Positions 23,250 through 31,188 of a stretch of DNA of 37,764 nucleotides are shown in pieces (the first letter of the stretch is position 1; each line of letters begins with the position of its first letter). The notes under the pieces are model-generated. The model had not been told where the DNA came from. It did not search any database and worked only from the letters and a program-made list of their open reading frames with translations. Origin of the DNA: Methylococcaceae bacterium (GTDB lineage Bacteria; Pseudomonadota; Gammaproteobacteria; Methylococcales; Methylomonadaceae); assembly GCA_012965425.1 (NCBI GenBank), contig DTSI01000155.1:16197-53960 (forward strand), in the 5' to 3' direction. The position numbers and the translations under genes are program-made.

Positions 23250-24950
23250 GTGTCAAAATCGGCGAAACGATTAATTATTTCAATATGTGTCATTATTATA
23301 TTTATTCTTTTCTTAACCAATGTGACACGTTATCTTTCCGCTAAGAAAAATCTAGACCTATTATCCCTCAATACCAACCAACCGCTAAACAGTCACCTCA
23401 TTTATTCTACGATTCAGGATATATCCAACCTTTTGACCTATAACATTATTTGCGCAACCACAGCTATTTTCTTGATTATCATCCTAATTAATATGACAAG
23501 ACTTAGAAAAACTATTGCGTTACGTAACGATGAATTAACTCAGGAAATATGCCAAAAAGAAACCGCATTAAGACAATTAAAACAAAAAACACATTTTGAT
23601 TCGATCACTCAAGCACTAAACCGCGCCGGCTTACAAAAGCTCTTAACTCATATTATTCATAACAAAGATCAAGGCGTACTTGTCGCCCTCGGAATTATGA
23701 ATTACAGGCAAATTCTTAATATTTTTGGGTTTACAACCAGTGAAACAGTGCTCATTGAATTTACCAACAGAATTTCCAAAATAATACCCAGCGCAACAGG
23801 CATTAGCCGTTTAGATTGCGGCACCTTTTCTTTATTTTTAAAAAATATTTCAATCGAGCACGCTACCACACTTTTTACCAACAATATCGCTAACTTTGAA
23901 ATGGTCATTGACACTGAATCAGGCCCCATTCAAACCCGATGCGCCATCGGTCTGATTCATACCAATGATCTCCCTAAAACCTCTTACCTCATTGAAAAAA
24001 CACAAAAATATAGTTCAGACTCCCCAACTTCCGAACACAGAACAAACCAACAACAAGCCAATAAGTTCTTACACCATCTTATTCATATTCTTCATCTAGC
24101 CCAAGCAAAACCTTCGACCAAAATAGCAACCTACAAAAGTTATTTAGGAAGCGAACATTTAAAAGTCAGCACCCTTCGCACCGAAATGATTGAAGCACTT
24201 GTTCGTGATGAATTCTCATTACGTTACCAACCCCAATTCAACCTTGACGGCTCATCCATACTGGGAATAGAAACATTATTACGCTGGTGCAAAGGCAGTC
24301 AACATTGCATCACTACCCAACAAGTTATCGATGAGCTTGAGCAAAGCGGTAACATCATCTCCGTGGGTGGCTGGGTTCTTCTACAAGCCTGCCAGCAAGC
24401 TACAAAATGGCTAGAAAATGATCCCCAATTACTTAAAACCATTTCCGTTAATGCCTCAGCGAATCAGATCATTAATGGTATTCTGATTAGACAAGTCACC
24501 GATGCTCTTAAAATTACTGGACTCCCTGCACATTTCCTTGAAATTGAACTAACTGAATCAGTATTAATTAAAGATGAAATTAGTGCGCTTGAAACACTCA
24601 CTACACTAAAAGAAATGGGGGTCAAGATTGCTTTAGACGATTTTGGTAAAGGTTATGCCTCTATCGATTACCTAAGAAAATTTCGCTTTGACACAATAAA
24701 AATAGACAAATCGTTTATCAACCAGATTGACACCAATACGGATCACATTGCAATTCTCTGTGCCATACTCGACTTCCTACAATCTTTGCAATACGAAAAC
24801 ATTGTGATTGAAGGCGTGGACTCTGATTTCAAATTAAAGAAATTAAGAGAATTAGGTTATCCAATACTGATACAAGGTTACGTTTTCAGCAAACCCCTGG
24901 TAGCCAGCGAGTTCGAAAATCTTGCCTACCATATTGAAACCAGTCACTAA
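23250..24950 (+). CDS. membrane-bound GGDEF-EAL protein, probable c-di-GMP phosphodiesterase
   Basis: Predicted inner-membrane c-di-GMP enzyme (566 residues). Two hydrophobic helices (about 7-24 and 63-82) flank a short periplasmic loop, followed by a coiled linker. The GGDEF domain (about 115-250) has LDCGT at residues 188-192 in place of the signature, so diguanylate cyclase activity is unlikely. The EAL domain (about 310-560) keeps the active-site residues: E341 (ETL in place of EAL), N401, the ELTES motif around 433-437, D463-D464 in DDFGKGYAS, K484 in KIDKSF, E521 in IEGVDS and Q542 in IQGYVFSKP. Degradation of c-di-GMP is therefore expected, perhaps with the GGDEF relic as a GTP-sensing part. 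The start is GTG with AAAGGA upstream. It stands alone. Confidence 0.93.
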   Translation: MSKSAKRLIISICVIIIFILFLTNVTRYLSAKKNLDLLSLNTNQPLNSHLIYSTIQDISNLLTYNIICATTAIFLIIILINMTRLRKTIALRNDELTQEICQKETALRQLKQKTHFDSITQALNRAGLQKLLTHIIHNKDQGVLVALGIMNYRQILNIFGFTTSETVLIEFTNRISKIIPSATGISRLDCGTFSLFLKNISIEHATTLFTNNIANFEMVIDTESGPIQTRCAIGLIHTNDLPKTSYLIEKTQKYSSDSPTSEHRTNQQQANKFLHHLIHILHLAQAKPSTKIATYKSYLGSEHLKVSTLRTEMIEALVRDEFSLRYQPQFNLDGSSILGIETLLRWCKGSQHCITTQQVIDELEQSGNIISVGGWVLLQACQQATKWLENDPQLLKTISVNASANQIINGILIRQVTDALKITGLPAHFLEIELTESVLIKDEISALETLTTLKEMGVKIALDDFGKGYASIDYLRKFRFDTIKIDKSFINQIDTNTDHIAILCAILDFLQSLQYENIVIEGVDSDFKLKKLRELGYPILIQGYVFSKPLVASEFENLAYHIETSH

Positions 24951-25159
24951 ACTAAAAACAAAATTTATAATTCCTTTAAGCGCACCCTACCAGACACAGT
25001 TACTAACAAATTATAGGCAACTACTCTTAACTCGTTATGACTTACAAGAAAATCTACTCTCACCGCCACTGTCCTCCCAAGAAATAGCTAATAATTACTA
25101 CGTCACCCCCTCTTAGCTATACGTTGGATCAATCATATACAAATACGATCTTATACTTT

Positions 25160-25801
25160 CTAACCCAGAGCGTTTACTAATTTTTTACCCATTCGCCCTA
25201 AAAAACCAGGTTCTAATAATCGCTTGGCTTGCTGTGTCTCAACCCCATCTGGCGAATAATTTTTTAATCCCTGATAAAAACCATTTGCTAAACTATGTTC
25301 CCCTAAAAAATTAAAGTAATAGCACATCACTAATGAAAAAGAATTATATTCTGACGGGTGAAACCGATTACGCCTCGGGTATAACGATTTCAAATCAAAC
25401 TTATTATCAAAAATCTTCGGTATTTGATCAAAATCCTTACGTTTAATACACAACTGCCCATAGTGACAACGGGCGATTAAATTATTACCGTTAACACGAT
25501 AATTTTCTTCAATACAGCGTTCTTGTTGAACAATATCACCGCGGCTATAGGCTGCAGATAAATAGTTATATAAGGTCGGTACTTTAGGATACTTGTTTTT
25601 TAATGCCTCCAGTTCAGGAATAACCAGCTTGCCCTCCTTTTCCATTCGGTCATATAATGCATTAGCTTGTTGTTGAACGGCTTCTGGAAGTTTAAAAAAT
25701 CTAGCATCCATAACCGCATCGTTGCCAATCTCATAAACAGATCGCACTATTTTCTTATTTTGATCCGGTGCCCTATGGACTTTTACTCTATTTTTAGCCA
25801 T
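25160..25801 (-). CDS. TPR-like hypothetical protein
   Basis: Soluble protein of 213 residues with no signal peptide or membrane segment. A basic N-terminus (MAKNRVKVHRAPDQNKK) is followed by a helical repeat-like region, with LEALKNKYPKVPTLYNYLSA and the next helices (about 75-135) having tetratricopeptide-type spacing. The C-terminal part contains EYNSFSLVMCYYFNFLG, also TPR-like. I do not recognise a named family. It is the last gene of the five-gene minus-strand run, 25 bases after the DUF2058 gene. A scaffold or chaperone role is possible but unsupported. Confidence 0.7.
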   Translation of the reverse strand: MAKNRVKVHRAPDQNKKIVRSVYEIGNDAVMDARFFKLPEAVQQQANALYDRMEKEGKLVIPELEALKNKYPKVPTLYNYLSAAYSRGDIVQQERCIEENYRVNGNNLIARCHYGQLCIKRKDFDQIPKIFDNKFDLKSLYPRRNRFHPSEYNSFSLVMCYYFNFLGEHSLANGFYQGLKNYSPDGVETQQAKRLLEPGFLGRMGKKLVNALG

Positions 25802-26431: not shown

Positions 26432-26968
26432 TTAAAAACAACTCGAATAATCAAAAAACATACCTTGGCAATCAAAAAACACCCGTGGAAATTTAATTCG
26501 AATAAACACACGAAAACCAAAATCCAAAAAGGCTGCTAAGGTCACAAGCCGAGCGGCGGCTGCCCAAATCCGGTGACGCGTATAAATTGACATCCGCCAA
26601 GTCGCTATGGTCCACCAGATGGTTGTGGTCATACACGTCAACAATAATGTATCCCAACTCGGCACACTGAAGGCGGTATTTCGAACCAACCAATCCCCCC
26701 CCGCTAATAATACATTCAATAAAACACAGAAAGGCCAAAAAACCTGCCACAACGGTAATTGGCCATACCAAGCATCGTAAAAGTAAGGCGCTTTACTACG
26801 AATGAGTTCCGAATGTTCATGAAGTTCTGATGGCACCTCAATATGATATTCTTTCATAGGCGTACTAATGTACAAAAGAAACAGGAGCATCAAAGCGATT
26901 GCAAGAAACACCAAAGGATCCAATAAAACGACCTGCTCCGATATAACTGGAAAAGTAAAATAGAACAT
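26432..26968 (-). CDS. small four-helix membrane protein of unknown function
   Basis: Protein of 178 residues that I do not recognise. Hydrophobic segments lie at about 14-34, 75-95, 104-123 and 136-156. Between the first two is a polar loop of about 40 residues with EYHIEVPSELHEHSELI and PYFYDAWYGQLP. The C-terminus is short and cysteine/aromatic-rich (FDCQGMFFDYSSC). It sits 36 bases after the SPFH-like coiled-coil gene and is probably co-transcribed with it and with the polytopic membrane protein gene upstream. It may be an anchor or assembly partner; that is inference from context only. Confidence 0.7.
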   Translation of the reverse strand: MFYFTFPVISEQVVLLDPLVFLAIALMLLFLLYISTPMKEYHIEVPSELHEHSELIRSKAPYFYDAWYGQLPLWQVFWPFCVLLNVLLAGGDWLVRNTAFSVPSWDTLLLTCMTTTIWWTIATWRMSIYTRHRIWAAAARLVTLAAFLDFGFRVFIRIKFPRVFFDCQGMFFDYSSCF

Positions 26969-27004
26969 AGTTAATAAAATAAAGCGTCCATTAAAAAAAG
27001 TTAG

Positions 27005-28363
27005 TTAGCTATTATCGTCTTCTTCTTTAATAAACTCCACCTGTTGTGCTAATTCAGCCCGCTGTTTTTCCAAAACTAACAACTCAATTTCACGGTGTAA
27101 AAATTCATCTGATCTTTGAGTTACCTCAAAACGCTTCCTTTGTTCAATCTGCGTGGCCTCCAACTCAAGATCGAGTAATCGTGAGTCATGTTTTAATTGA
27201 TCAATTTGCAATTTTTCTTCCAGCTTCTGCTTGGCTACCATTTTGAATTCTTGCTCCATGATTTCTTTTTCTAACTGCTTTTCTTTAAAACGATTTTCTT
27301 GTTGAATTTTTTGTTCCTGAATTTTCGCATTGGCTTCTAACCAACGCAATTGCTTGCTCTCATGTTCTTTAAGATCAAAGGTTAACTGTTTTGCATTAAT
27401 TTTCTCGGTATGGGTAAAACCCACCGTTTGCATCTTTTCTTCTGAGGCTTGCTCAACCAACTGTTCTTCATAAAAACGTTCAGCCTTCGCCTTAACTTCA
27501 AGTTGTTTAATCGTAATCTCATGTTCCAATTCACGCTCCCTGAGTTGTCTTTCTACAACAAATTGCGCTTCTTTTTGTTGTCCCCACTCGACTAACTGAC
27601 GCTTCATGCTGTCTGAATTTTGTTCCTGATGCTGACTTCTATAATCTGCTTCTTCAGAAAACTGGTCTAACTGCATTTGCTTTTGCTCCATTTTTATTTC
27701 ATGCAACAACTCGTCTTCACGCAACAATTCTTCCTTCTTTTTCACTGTAAATTCAAAATTCTTACGCATGACTTCCAAATACTGCGTCTGATGTACAAAG
27801 CGGTGATCAAAAACACTGTCCTCTTCTAATTCTTCAAACAACGGCTCTAATTTACAGACTGCACGACACTGAATATCTTGCACCATCAATGTTTCTTGAA
27901 TAATATTTTCCACTTCTTTTTCAGTACTTTCTAACCCACCAGCTATCCAATGACCGTTCTCTAGTTCTCGCAATTCACCCGCTAAAATATCCAAAACCAA
28001 ACCCTGATAATTCTGCTTAATCAATGCCGTCAGTTCCGGAATAAATTCCATATTCGAACGCGCGAATTCATAGGTCGCCTGAAAACGCAATTGTAACGTA
28101 ACACTCACCGTACAAAAACCACCAAATAAAACGTACTTTTCAGTCAGTTCCCAATCTTCAATGGGTAAAGAAAAAGCCCTTCTAAAAAAGCGTTGCACAT
28201 ACTTTTTCGGTTTTGGATAACAGCGCACAAAGGGTCCAAATTGAGCCACCACGATTTGTCTTTCCCCGGAAAAACCAGGCTCCCAGACCGTTCTGGCGAC
28301 AACGTTCTTATTTTTTGTAAGTCCGGCTAAAAACTCATCCAGTGGAAATAATTGATCAGCCAT
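27005..28363 (-). CDS. SPFH-like protein with a very long charged coiled coil
   Basis: 452-residue cytoplasmic-looking protein without signal peptide or membrane helix. Residues about 30-190 have the alternating strand-helix pattern of an SPFH/Band 7 head: QIVVAQFGPFVRCYPKPKKY, FGGFCTVSVTLQLRFQA, ELTALIKQNYQGLVLDILAG and IQETLMVQDIQCRAVCKLEP resemble the core strands and the closing helix of flotillin-like proteins. From about 200 to the end it is an almost uninterrupted coiled coil rich in Glu, Gln and Lys (EELLREDELLHEIKMEQKQM and similar). SPFH proteins form oligomeric cages or fences at membranes. The lack of a membrane segment suggests that the upstream neighbour, five bases away, provides the anchor. 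The SPFH link is my reading of the sequence pattern, not a database match. Confidence 0.6.
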   Translation of the reverse strand: MADQLFPLDEFLAGLTKNKNVVARTVWEPGFSGERQIVVAQFGPFVRCYPKPKKYVQRFFRRAFSLPIEDWELTEKYVLFGGFCTVSVTLQLRFQATYEFARSNMEFIPELTALIKQNYQGLVLDILAGELRELENGHWIAGGLESTEKEVENIIQETLMVQDIQCRAVCKLEPLFEELEEDSVFDHRFVHQTQYLEVMRKNFEFTVKKKEELLREDELLHEIKMEQKQMQLDQFSEEADYRSQHQEQNSDSMKRQLVEWGQQKEAQFVVERQLRERELEHEITIKQLEVKAKAERFYEEQLVEQASEEKMQTVGFTHTEKINAKQLTFDLKEHESKQLRWLEANAKIQEQKIQQENRFKEKQLEKEIMEQEFKMVAKQKLEEKLQIDQLKHDSRLLDLELEATQIEQRKRFEVTQRSDEFLHREIELLVLEKQRAELAQQVEFIKEEDDNS

Positions 28364-28368
28364 CAGTA

Positions 28369-29619
28369 CTACTCATCCACAGGGGCTGGAGATACATTAT
28401 CATCCACCAGCCCTTTTAATTTAGCGCCTAAACGATCAGCGATTAACGGGTACAAATTAGGTGCAAATTCCACCGTTCGTCGATCAATTTTTCGTAAAAA
28501 ACCACGGCTTAATAAAAAACCCACTGCGAACATTCGTGACCAATCTGAATAACGCCGGGCTTTTTCTATCGGACTTTTTTCTATGATCATTTCTAACTCA
28601 TCATTTTCATTAATCCTAAATTCGTTAAACTCACGTATACATTGAAAAACTAAGTCTTCTTCCTGTTCCGACAAGGGTGCGGGCGCTTTAAACTCAAGAC
28701 GATAGGACAGTAACACCGTAAAAAAATCAACCATTGCGGCACACACTAAAGCAAAAATAGATAAGCCCTCCCACAGGGTAAAAGAAGGCTTTACAGCCTG
28801 AGTATATTCCCCATAGGTCATTAACACGGGAGCTTGTGGAATTTCGTGACCCACTTGAAAAGCAACCTGATGAAAATTCAACTGCACCGCTTGCAAACTT
28901 GTCTGAACGGACTGATACCTTTTTTCCATCGCTGTCGACTGAAGCAGTCCCAGATAATTTAAATTAGACTGCACTGTCCGAATCCCCTCATTTAATAAAA
29001 TAAAAGTTTCCTCTAATCGTTTATTTTCCTCGCGCTTGTTCTGGTAAAGTTCGTTAAAACGTTTCCAAAAAGGGCCTTGACCCACTTGATTTTTATAATT
29101 TACCGATATTTCAGGGTGGGTACCAAAATACGCTGCTGAAACCTCTTGTGACGCCTGCTCAAGTTCTGCGCGTTTTTGTTCAAAAATCTCAGTCTTCAAA
29201 CTTACGATACTATTAATATAGTCTTCAATTTGCTGGCGCACCTCTATTAATCGATTATTCTGTATCGTTTCACGCTCTGAAACTTCATAAAATTTAAAAT
29301 ACGAAAAGGAAATTGATGCCGTCAAAGAAATAATCAGTGACAGTAATACGGAGAAATACCTGAAGCGATTTGCGCGCCAATGAATACTAGCTAACTCCAG
29401 CGAACAGATTACAATAATAGATTGAATAGCAATGGTTATAACCAAAGCAATCCAAGGGATAATAAAATGGGACATCCCATAATACGTGGTAAACCCAGAT
29501 GCGATACTTAACATCAAAACAATAGGAATTGTCCAGATTCTTAATGAAGACACAAACAATGTCTGAATCTGATTAATAACCACGCCAAAAGTGCTTTGAT
29601 TTCTGCTCAAAATGTCCAC
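28369..29619 (-). CDS. polytopic membrane protein with a long extracytoplasmic-type coiled coil
   Basis: 416-residue protein of unknown function. Three hydrophobic helices lie at about 27-45, 52-72 and 88-109. A long helical coiled-coil segment follows (about 115-250, with VRQQIEDYINSIVSLKTEI and QNKREENKRLEETF). A fourth hydrophobic helix is at 283-305, then a soluble, possibly winged-helix-like C-terminal part containing DWSRMFAVGFLLSRGFLRK. The topology recalls DUF4407-type proteins, but I cannot claim membership. The start is uncertain: a GTG at 29619 without a ribosome binding site, or a TTG at 29610 preceded by GGGGTGG; no early ATG exists. It leads the five-gene minus-strand run, with five bases to the SPFH-like gene, and is likely its membrane partner. 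Confidence 0.65.
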   Translation of the reverse strand: MDILSRNQSTFGVVINQIQTLFVSSLRIWTIPIVLMLSIASGFTTYYGMSHFIIPWIALVITIAIQSIIVICSLELASIHWRANRFRYFSVLLSLIISLTASISFSYFKFYEVSERETIQNNRLIEVRQQIEDYINSIVSLKTEIFEQKRAELEQASQEVSAAYFGTHPEISVNYKNQVGQGPFWKRFNELYQNKREENKRLEETFILLNEGIRTVQSNLNYLGLLQSTAMEKRYQSVQTSLQAVQLNFHQVAFQVGHEIPQAPVLMTYGEYTQAVKPSFTLWEGLSIFALVCAAMVDFFTVLLSYRLEFKAPAPLSEQEEDLVFQCIREFNEFRINENDELEMIIEKSPIEKARRYSDWSRMFAVGFLLSRGFLRKIDRRTVEFAPNLYPLIADRLGAKLKGLVDDNVSPAPVDE

Positions 29620-29691: not shown

Positions 29692-31188
29692 CTAAAACCT
29701 TTCCAAATCTTTATGCGGTAACTCGCCGTGGTGTACATGTAGTGCTCCAAATTCTGCACATCGGCGTAGAGAAGGCAGTCCTTTTCCTGGGTTTAACAGG
29801 CCTTTTTCATCAAAAGCCGCCTTAATCGCATGAAACTGATTTAACGTTGCTAACGAAAACTGAATACACATATGATTTATTTTCTCAACACCGACGCCAT
29901 GCTCACCGGTTATAGTGCCGCCTACGCGTATACTTAACGATAAAATATCACTGCCGAGTCGTTCTGCCTTGTCAAAGTCCCCCGGGACATTACCATCATA
30001 AAGAATTAAAGGGTGCAAATTACCATCTCCGGCATGAAATACATTCGCAACAGGCAAACCATATTTTTCAGATAATCCGGCAATAGACTTTAATACGGCA
30101 GCTAACTGATGACGCGGGATCGTGCCATCCATACAGTAATAATCCGGTGAAATCCGTCCTACTGCCGGAAAAGCCGCTTTTCGCCCAGCCCACATTTTCT
30201 GTCGTGCTAATTCATCGTGTGCTATTTCTACTGTTTGAGCTCCTAAACTCAATAATAGCGGATAAACCTGTTCTAATTGTTCTGTGACTTGTTCAGCCGT
30301 CCCATCGATTTCACATAACAAAATAGCCTTTGCTGTAATGGGGTAACCGGCATGACAAAACTCTTCCGCCGCGCAAATAGCGGTATTGTCCATCATTTCC
30401 AATCCTGCTGGTATTAAGCCTGCTGCAATAACTCCAGCGACCGCTTTACCCGCAATCTCAACACAGTCAAAAACCGCCATCATGACCTGTGCTGACGGGA
30501 CCAGCGGCAATAACTTAACAGAAACCTCGATTATAATCCCAAGCATGCCCTCGGAACCCGTCAAAATAGCTAAAAGATCATAACCCTCACTATCAAAGCC
30601 ATGACTTCCAATCACAACCAATTCACCGGCCATCGTGAGTATTTTTAACCGTAAAATATTATGTGTCGTCAATCCGTATTTAAGACAATGTACACCGCCT
30701 GCATTTTCTGCAACATTCCCGCCAATGGTACAGGCAATTTGAGATGATGGATCCGGCGCATAATACAAACCCTCTTTCGCTACTTTTTTAGATATGGCTA
30801 AATTAGTAACGCCTGGTTCAACTACTGCCAATAAATTATCACAATCAATGGCAAGAATTTTATTAAACTTCACCATCGAGATTAATACCCCATTATCTAA
30901 GGGTAACGCCCCACCCGACAATCCGGTCCCTGCGCCTCTGGCAACCACAGGAATGCCATAATCGTTACAGAGCCTTAAAACCCTTTGAATTGCTTCGACC
31001 GTCTCAGGAAGCACTACAATCCAGGGCATTGTCTGATAAGCCGCCAAAGCATCACATTCATAAGGCTTAAGCATTTCTTGCTCAAAAAGAATCGCATCCC
31101 CTGGTAAAAAAGTCCTCAGTTCTGCCAGAAGCTCAGGTTTTTTCACACGATGGGAGATTCTCTCAGCAGGATGAATTGGTGGTATCAT
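29692..31188 (-). CDS. glcD: FAD-linked oxidase, GlcD-like (glycolate oxidase subunit D family)
   Basis: Flavoprotein of the FAD-binding type 4 family (498 residues), closest in pattern to the GlcD subunit of glycolate oxidase, which oxidises glycolate to glyoxylate. FAD-binding motifs are VVARGAGTGLSGGALP (near 85), AVVEPGVTN, the long PDPSSQIACTIGGNVAENAG and LTGSEGMLGII. The C-terminal substrate domain contains NVFHAGDGNLHPLI and GEHGVGVEK. The N-terminal layout matches E. coli GlcD, supporting this ATG. Neither GlcE nor GlcF is adjacent, so it may instead act alone on lactate, glycolate or a 2-hydroxy acid; GlcD-like proteins of this kind are often over-annotated. It is divergent from the YigZ gene with only 23 bases between starts. 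Confidence 0.85.
   Translation of the reverse strand: MIPPIHPAERISHRVKKPELLAELRTFLPGDAILFEQEMLKPYECDALAAYQTMPWIVVLPETVEAIQRVLRLCNDYGIPVVARGAGTGLSGGALPLDNGVLISMVKFNKILAIDCDNLLAVVEPGVTNLAISKKVAKEGLYYAPDPSSQIACTIGGNVAENAGGVHCLKYGLTTHNILRLKILTMAGELVVIGSHGFDSEGYDLLAILTGSEGMLGIIIEVSVKLLPLVPSAQVMMAVFDCVEIAGKAVAGVIAAGLIPAGLEMMDNTAICAAEEFCHAGYPITAKAILLCEIDGTAEQVTEQLEQVYPLLLSLGAQTVEIAHDELARQKMWAGRKAAFPAVGRISPDYYCMDGTIPRHQLAAVLKSIAGLSEKYGLPVANVFHAGDGNLHPLILYDGNVPGDFDKAERLGSDILSLSIRVGGTITGEHGVGVEKINHMCIQFSLATLNQFHAIKAAFDEKGLLNPGKGLPSLRRCAEFGALHVHHGELPHKDLERF

Follow-up and report, generated by a model that had tools for sequence, protein, structure and literature searches.

Do three closely spaced genes in a methane-oxidizing gammaproteobacterium encode one membrane assembly, and, if not, which of them belong together and what might they do? 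The genes lie in a stretch of 37,764 nucleotides (hereafter, the window) from a Methylococcaceae bacterium (assembly GCA_012965425.1, contig DTSI01000155.1, positions 16,197 to 53,960), on one of the 155 contigs of a 2.32-Mb genome. An initial annotation, made from the letters alone, described genes 1, 2, and 3 (416, 452, and 178 amino acids) as an assembly of two membrane proteins around an SPFH-like protein; its coordinates, strand, lengths, and gaps are correct, with 5 bases between genes 1 and 2 and 36 between genes 2 and 3, all on the minus strand. We identified that the conserved unit is the pair of genes 1 and 2, not the trio, and that the head of gene 2, as modeled, has the SPFH fold. 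We propose, with a probability of roughly 55%, that the pair encodes a membrane scaffold of two proteins, one of them with the SPFH fold, that is specific to methanotrophic Methylococcales. The features discussed below are as follows.

28369..29619, minus strand: gene 1 of the pair, a 416-residue membrane protein (open reading frame with a GTG start; AlphaFold2 model; present in 101 of 151 genomes)
28768..29289, minus strand: gene 1 residues 111-284, a variable helical bundle predicted to be periplasmic (model, conservation, loop charges)
28396..28698, minus strand: gene 1 residues 308-408, conserved domain predicted to be cytosolic, winged-helix-like in the model (model, Foldseek, conservation)
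27005..28363, minus strand: gene 2 of the pair, a 452-residue SPFH-fold protein with a long predicted coiled-coil tail and no membrane segment (open reading frame, structure model, hydropathy)
27839..28267, minus strand: gene 2 residues 33-175, SPFH domain of the model (VIA-align, Foldseek)
27014..27799, minus strand: gene 2 residues 189-450, predicted coiled-coil tail (model to residue 231, then composition)
26432..26968, minus strand: gene 3, a small membrane protein of 178 amino acids, judged to lie outside the conserved unit (open reading frame; present in 69 of 151 genomes)

Genes 1 and 2 form the conserved unit

Across 151 genomes of the order, gene 1 was identified in 101 and gene 2 in 102, the sole difference being 1 genome (G127) in which gene 2 is truncated by the beginning of a contig. 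In 99 of the 101 genomes, the 2 genes are immediate neighbors on one strand with gene 1 upstream, and in the remaining 2 (G003 and G039) the matches to the 2 genes fall on different contigs. After removal of duplicates and of genes under 380 or 300 amino acids, the genes overlap in 109 of 114 distinct loci and are 3-6 nucleotides apart in the other 5, the number of overlaps being exaggerated by use of the first possible start codon. Both genes were present in 78 of 80 loci from named records, with the 2 exceptions stopping at contig ends. When the neighborhoods of 121 loci were compared, gene 1 clustered in 120 and gene 2 followed in 115; of the 5 loci without a gene 2 call, L131 and L175 lie at contig ends, and L106, L110, and L112 are gene-picking misses in which a profile finds gene 2. 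No further neighbor is widely conserved, the next commonest family occurring in 13 of these 121 loci. With the pair constant while its other neighbors vary, it changes genomic place as a unit. Presence lists and gene places were compiled by hand, as were the by-family counts made from them.

The same surveys bear on whether the products of genes 1, 2, and 3 form one complex. The 36-base gap and the shared strand speak for such a complex, as does the position of gene 3 after gene 2 in all 5 genomes of the window's own genus and in 1 other genome (G048). However, of 103 distinct loci in which 1,000 bases or more downstream of gene 2 could be inspected, only 7 have gene 3 after it, and these 7 loci represent the same 6 genomes (G048 being counted twice), although contig breaks may hide a few more. 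Gene 3 was identified in 69 of the 151 genomes, 58 with the pair and 11 without it, and 43 genomes with the pair had no gene 3 match. A three-gene complex is therefore extremely improbable, and the proposed trio fails because it is not kept together in relatives.

The description of gene 3 as a four-helix membrane protein with a Cys- and aromatic-rich tail holds in part. The protein is hydrophobic and ends in an invariant Cys-Phe (24 of 24 aligned sequences), with further invariant Trp, Arg, and Cys residues, but 3 rather than 4 windows exceed 1.4. No Pfam family matched gene 3 or its homologues above the cut-off, and no widely shared neighborhood was found in 30 loci of the gene. We judge gene 3 to be a chance neighbor of the pair with its own family of small membrane proteins.

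Gene 2 has an SPFH-fold head and no membrane segment

Searches with genes 1-3 returned nothing above the curated cut-offs of Pfam or NCBIfam and no matches of note in PHROGs or PADLOC. A sequence-profile search of the PDB gave 1 match for gene 2 (E 1.9) and none for gene 3; with gene 1 it gave 43 matches, all weak and lying on the coil or on helical segments (best E 0.0078). The SPFH fold of gene 2 came to light only through structure. The head of gene 2 (residues 1-232) was modeled with AlphaFold2 from an alignment of 81 sequences, comprising the window protein and 80 homologues from 183 loci with a gene 2 open reading frame; near-duplicates, low-coverage rows, and 1 further locus (L114) were left out, and 8 references were trimmed by hand. 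The model has a mean predicted local distance difference test (pLDDT) score of 82.3, with block means of 82-93 over residues 31-180, so that the region in which the initial annotation saw an SPFH-like head is modeled with confidence. The first 24 rows of a Foldseek search against the PDB were all SPFH entries (row 16 being one chain of a stomatin-aquaporin entry), with a flotillin best at E 2.0e-4, and all 5 rows that passed E 0.001 were SPFH proteins. The model resembles structures of flotillin, erlin, stomatin, HflK/C, and prohibitin, and the SPFH assignment of the initial annotation is thereby supported. In VIA-align, human prohibitin (9unl_E) reached Z 10.4 with a root mean square deviation of 3.0 over 137 aligned residues, flotillin (9l3g_A) Z 9.1, and HflK/C (7wi3_D) Z 8.9; all these matches are confined to model residues 33-177, and SPFH families missing from the VIA-align list are not excluded by it.

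Trp27, Phe31, Gln95, and Cys170 are invariant in the 81 sequences, and Trp71 and Cys84 are conserved in 80 of them. The 2 cysteines, Cys84 and Cys170, lie in the SPFH head (27668-28363, minus strand), where a disulfide, a metal site, or a lipidation site is possible. A consensus stretch, RPxxFxxRFYH, aligns in hhalign with the Band_7 stretch preceding the central strands and may be the membrane-facing part, as in other SPFH proteins.

The remainder of the protein agrees with the reading of a charged coil without a membrane segment. No hydrophobic segment was identified along gene 2 (maximum 19-residue Kyte-Doolittle window, 1.17), and its tail of 264 residues contains 0 Pro and 2 Gly. The tail is modeled as a helix at residues 189-231 and, judging by composition, probably continues as coiled coil beyond residue 231. 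In 114 distinct homologues, the tail measures 148-373 residues, with a median of 246.5. Ordinary Band_7 proteins were also identified in all 31 genomes searched, and gene 2 is not among the 3 Band_7 proteins listed for its own genome.

Gene 1 is a four-helix membrane protein with a conserved C-terminal domain

We modeled gene 1 with AlphaFold2 from 69 sequences (the window protein and 68 from 179 loci with a gene 1 open reading frame), obtaining a mean pLDDT of 81.3. Gene 1 has 4 hydrophobic stretches (19-residue windows starting at residues 21, 53, 90, and 286), the last 2 of which are separated by a long helical region, in agreement with the earlier description of 4 hydrophobic helices with a long coil. 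The model places 3 transmembrane (TM) helices at the N terminus, the third of which extends into a long helix, followed by 2 more helices, TM4, and a compact C-terminal domain; the helices between TM3 and TM4 span residues 85-165, 183-223, and 231-256. Mean Lys/Arg counts per sequence are 2.9 for the N terminus, 2.8 for the TM2-TM3 loop, and 0.0 for the TM1-TM2 loop. These charges put the N terminus and the TM2-TM3 loop inside and the TM1-TM2 loop outside, a topology that would place the hairpin at residues 111-284 in the periplasm and the C-terminal domain in the cytosol. Conservation differs along the protein, with a mean majority frequency of 0.55 over residues 111-284 and 0.83-0.86 over the TM helices and the C-terminal domain, and 43 of the 89 columns at residues 308-396 are at least 90% conserved. 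The conserved TM helices and C-terminal domain are where a cytosolic partner could bind.

In the whole-protein model, the elements of the C-terminal domain follow the order alpha-beta-beta-alpha-alpha-beta-beta-alpha, which is the winged-helix order. Many winged-helix regulators occur in the top 50 Foldseek rows, the best at E 0.13 and none significant, and the Foldseek and VIA-align lists for gene 1 were not used as identification. Genes 1 and 3 of the window gave no match to NfeD at E values up to 1, and NfeD was likewise missing from the families displayed for their homologues (25 of 152 for gene 1 and all 9 for gene 3).

DUF4407 (PF14362) was considered as a possible origin of gene 1, with some promising signs. 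Weak matches to it occur in 37 of the 69 gene 1 sequences (best E 2.7e-6), the window protein being unmatched, and 4 of 10 homologues scanned closely scored 20.3 to 26.6 bits, short of the 31.3-bit cut-off; some of these matches are collinear from TM1 through the coil. Among the DUF4407 proteins of the 4 loci above the family cut-off that were used for comparison, L246 and L247 have 4 hydropathy windows each, L248 has 5, and L265 has only 3. A profile comparison of gene 1 with these 4 proteins gave 3%, and a reverse profile search between DUF4407 and gene 1 found nothing. Sub-threshold DUF4407 matches in 16 other genomes fall mostly on coil, which makes coil bias a real worry for the 37 matches. 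Since both the profile-profile and the reverse searches fail, gene 1 is not filed under DUF4407.

Distribution and descent of the pair

A scan of GTDB species identified 167 encoding stretches, and taxonomy was taken from the best 80 of these, all of which are titled as Methylococcales, methanotrophic genera, methanotrophic symbionts, or unnamed metagenome-assembled genomes (MAGs). Gene 1 of the window is 96% identical to that of the Methylococcales MAG OPU3_GD_OMZ, which is among its nearest named relatives, and the pair is present in Methylotuvimicrobium buryatense 5G, a genetically tractable strain. In 369 genomes drawn from the class, a gene 1 profile identified 3 Methylococcales (the own genome, one of the same family, and one of the same order) and 1 coil-like fragment (G446), which is partial, weak, and interrupted by stops and was discounted as coil noise. 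Of 299 genomes sampled across the phylum, only the own genome had a match to the gene 2 head. A second profile search of 50 genomes without gene 1 was empty save for 1 weak coil match (G112), likewise set aside as coil noise. The pair is specific to Methylococcales as far as sampled, type II and other methanotrophs not having been searched by name.

A tree of gene 1 with 41 rows agrees with taxonomy and needs 5 family changes, the fewest possible, although 3 families are represented by a single row and family f6 is placed among rows of f1. Plasmid records gave no match, and none of the 32 stretches of viral contigs that matched the search pattern encodes a relative. Judged by the tree, the pair seems to be an ancient trait passed on by vertical descent in the main aerobic methane-oxidizing Gammaproteobacteria.

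We compared the presence of the pair with that of PF02461 (PmoA-type), a gene of which is also present in the source genome. Across the 151 genomes, 82 had both, 19 had the pair only (some of these genomes being incomplete), 37 had PF02461 only, and 13 had neither. None of the 18 genomes of family f7, presumably Cycloclasticus, has the pair; 12 of them carry PF02461. In 4 genomes of a single genus (G014, G040, G062, and G079), about 15-19 kb separate the pair from pmoA; inspection by eye showed no such proximity in the other genomes.

Genes around the pair

Directly upstream of the pair, in its own genus and at a few other loci, lies a gene for a flavin adenine dinucleotide-linked oxidase (GlcD-like; 29692-31188, minus strand), with which the pair may be co-transcribed there. 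Gene 3 is followed downstream by a DUF2058 gene and a 213-residue protein (25160-25801, minus strand) that has no Pfam or NCBIfam match and stands beside DUF2058 in 5 of 5 genomes of its own genus. A GGDEF-EAL protein is encoded at 23250-24950 on the plus strand; its EAL domain is matched strongly and its GGDEF domain less so. Between positions 25000 and 31400, promoter-like sites (12 versus 16.0) and terminator-like sites (4 versus 5.6) were no commoner than in shuffles.

A proposed scaffold and its alternatives

Built on the computed SPFH fold, the absence of an anchor in gene 2, the layout of gene 1, the constant pairing, and the lineage restriction in the samples, the proposed scaffold would work as follows. 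Gene 2 would be an SPFH-fold protein of the cytosol that lacks a membrane anchor of its own; its aromatic and basic SPFH1 edge would touch the inner leaflet, and its coiled-coil tail would line up with those of neighboring subunits to form a ring or dome like those of flotillin and prohibitin. Gene 1 would act as the dedicated anchor and receptor, recruiting gene 2 through its conserved cytosolic face, by analogy with YdjI (see below), and holding the ring with its 4 TM helices and conserved cytosolic domain, while its variable periplasmic hairpin would meet a client or an envelope signal. Together, the 2 proteins would delimit a patch of the inner membrane. The initial annotation had suggested both membrane proteins as partners of the SPFH protein, and only gene 1 keeps that role. 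That gene 1 stands in for the missing anchor of gene 2 is well supported by the constant adjacency of the 2 genes, and we infer that their products interact physically.

Several observations weigh against this scaffold. In VIA-align, unrelated ribosomal and aldolase chains reach Z 8.2-8.4; prohibitin exceeds them by about 2 Z units, and flotillin and HflK/C by less than 1. The SPFH assignment rests on the uniform Foldseek list and the prohibitin rows. Whole-model TM-scores by query are low for SPFH rows (0.28-0.42), partly because the model contains a long helix. Pfam Band_7 (PF01145) matches 1 of the 81 gene 2 heads, at E 0.056 and below the cut-off, and an hhalign comparison with 22 Band_7 proteins gave a probability of 0.9% and E 0.063, although the alignment is in the expected register (the 22 were kept from 29 picked open reading frames, wrong-frame picks and near-duplicates being left out). 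The sequence does not show descent of gene 2 from SPFH proteins, and with its score below the cut-off we filed gene 2 as an SPFH-fold protein and not as a Band_7 member. The cytosolic domain of gene 1 looks more like a winged helix than like a known SPFH partner. Finally, the pair is dispensable, being absent from 21 of 91 genomes of its own family (4 of them less than 90% complete). These members without the pair belong to 8 genera, 6 of which also have members bearing it, a pattern that suggests repeated loss within the family, although a few absences may reflect incomplete assemblies.

In a different reading, the pair would be an envelope sensor and not a structural scaffold: the hairpin of gene 1 would sense, the winged-helix-like domain would relay the signal, possibly to DNA, and gene 2 would cluster the receptors. 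Helical sensor domains (McpZ, TorS, and McpS) and winged-helix regulators of the CooA, CRP, and MarR types rank high in the structural matches of gene 1, and a variable bundle joined to a conserved cytosolic domain is a pattern that suits a receptor. We nevertheless regard a sensor as unlikely, given the best Foldseek E value of 0.13, the commonness of helical VIA-align matches with Z under about 13, and the lack of any widely conserved candidate target gene nearby in the 121 loci. A defense or conflict module, with a membrane effector of the SLATT or DUF4407 type and a scaffold, finds some footing in matches of NCBIfam SLATT_4 to 12 of the 69 gene 1 sequences (best E 1.9e-5), the window gene scoring 10.9 bits against a cut-off of 55. 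The gene 1 tree that follows taxonomy, the absence of plasmid matches and of confirmed viral relatives, a PADLOC result limited to a 38-residue gene 1 match (E 1.4e-4), and the lack of conserved defense-like neighbors in the 121 loci make such a module very improbable.

A link to methane oxidation itself would have the pair organize or quality-control the intracytoplasmic membranes (ICMs) or the particulate methane monooxygenase (pMMO) arrays of type I methanotrophs. The link is attractive because the mechanism of ICM biogenesis is described as not known (PMC9445010), and it agrees with the confinement of the pair to Methylococcales in the samples searched, with the presence of PF02461 in 82 of the 101 genomes bearing the pair, and with the absence of the pair from all f7 genomes, even those carrying PF02461. 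Yet 16 genomes of the window's own family have PF02461 and lack the pair (one of them, G077, being 73% complete), an absence confirmed by profile search, so methanotrophy as such does not depend on the pair, and, as far as inspection by eye shows, its proximity to pmoA is limited to the one genus. This role seems to us quite unlikely. A fuller version, in which this SPFH subfamily and its partner family build large cages on the inner and intracytoplasmic membranes and help to shape or police pMMO membranes, is a shade more doubtful still. SPFH proteins form membrane rings or domes, and in solved complexes the number of subunits follows the length of the CC1 helix (subunits = 0.1782 x length + 10.22), flotillin having 44 (PMC12624060). 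By that analogy, the whole 264-residue tail of gene 2 as a single CC1 helix would give an upper bound of about 57 subunits, and such a cage, were it real, could exceed that of flotillin. The pair is a compact, testable candidate in a lineage in which, by the published account, it is not known how the stacked internal membranes are built (PMC9445010).

Comparison with known systems

A literature search of open-licence PMC papers found no paper naming the pair. Among the closest systems is that of YdjI of B. subtilis, an SPFH protein without a TM segment that needs the co-operonic YdjG and YdjH for its membrane foci and links PspA to the membrane (PMC8581546). The pspA-ydjGHI operon resembles the pair in encoding an anchorless SPFH protein beside integral membrane proteins, but it comprises 1 SPFH gene, 2 membrane genes, PspA, and a zinc-finger motif in YdjI, whereas the pair has 1 membrane gene. 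PspA was not identified among 7 window proteins scanned or as a conserved neighbor in the 121 loci, and no genome-wide PspA search was made.

Flotillins and the prokaryotic SPFH2 proteins (FloT and YqiK) share with gene 2 an SPFH head, a long coiled coil, and a partner gene in the operon, which in their case encodes NfeD (PMC2636767). The pair differs from them in having no Band_7 score above the cut-off and no NfeD match, and the architecture of its partner is different. Prohibitin and HflK/C cages share the SPFH fold with gene 2 over residues 33-175, and a dome may be expected by analogy (PMC12624060). An N-terminal TM helix or hairpin is usual though not universal in the SPFH superfamily; prohibitins carry such a helix and mammalian flotillins have no TM segment (PMC12624060), and gene 2 likewise has none. 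DUF4407 proteins share the layout of gene 1 (3 TM helices, coiled coil, and a further TM helix), but the 3 DUF4407 neighborhoods examined contain no gene 2-like protein.

An SPFH protein with a membrane partner is a known kind of system, represented here by an SPFH-fold group outside Band_7, with a partner without an NfeD match, in one order as sampled. SPFH scaffolds are usually recognized by Band_7, and as this pair escapes it, the SPFH superfamily is probably larger than annotation shows.

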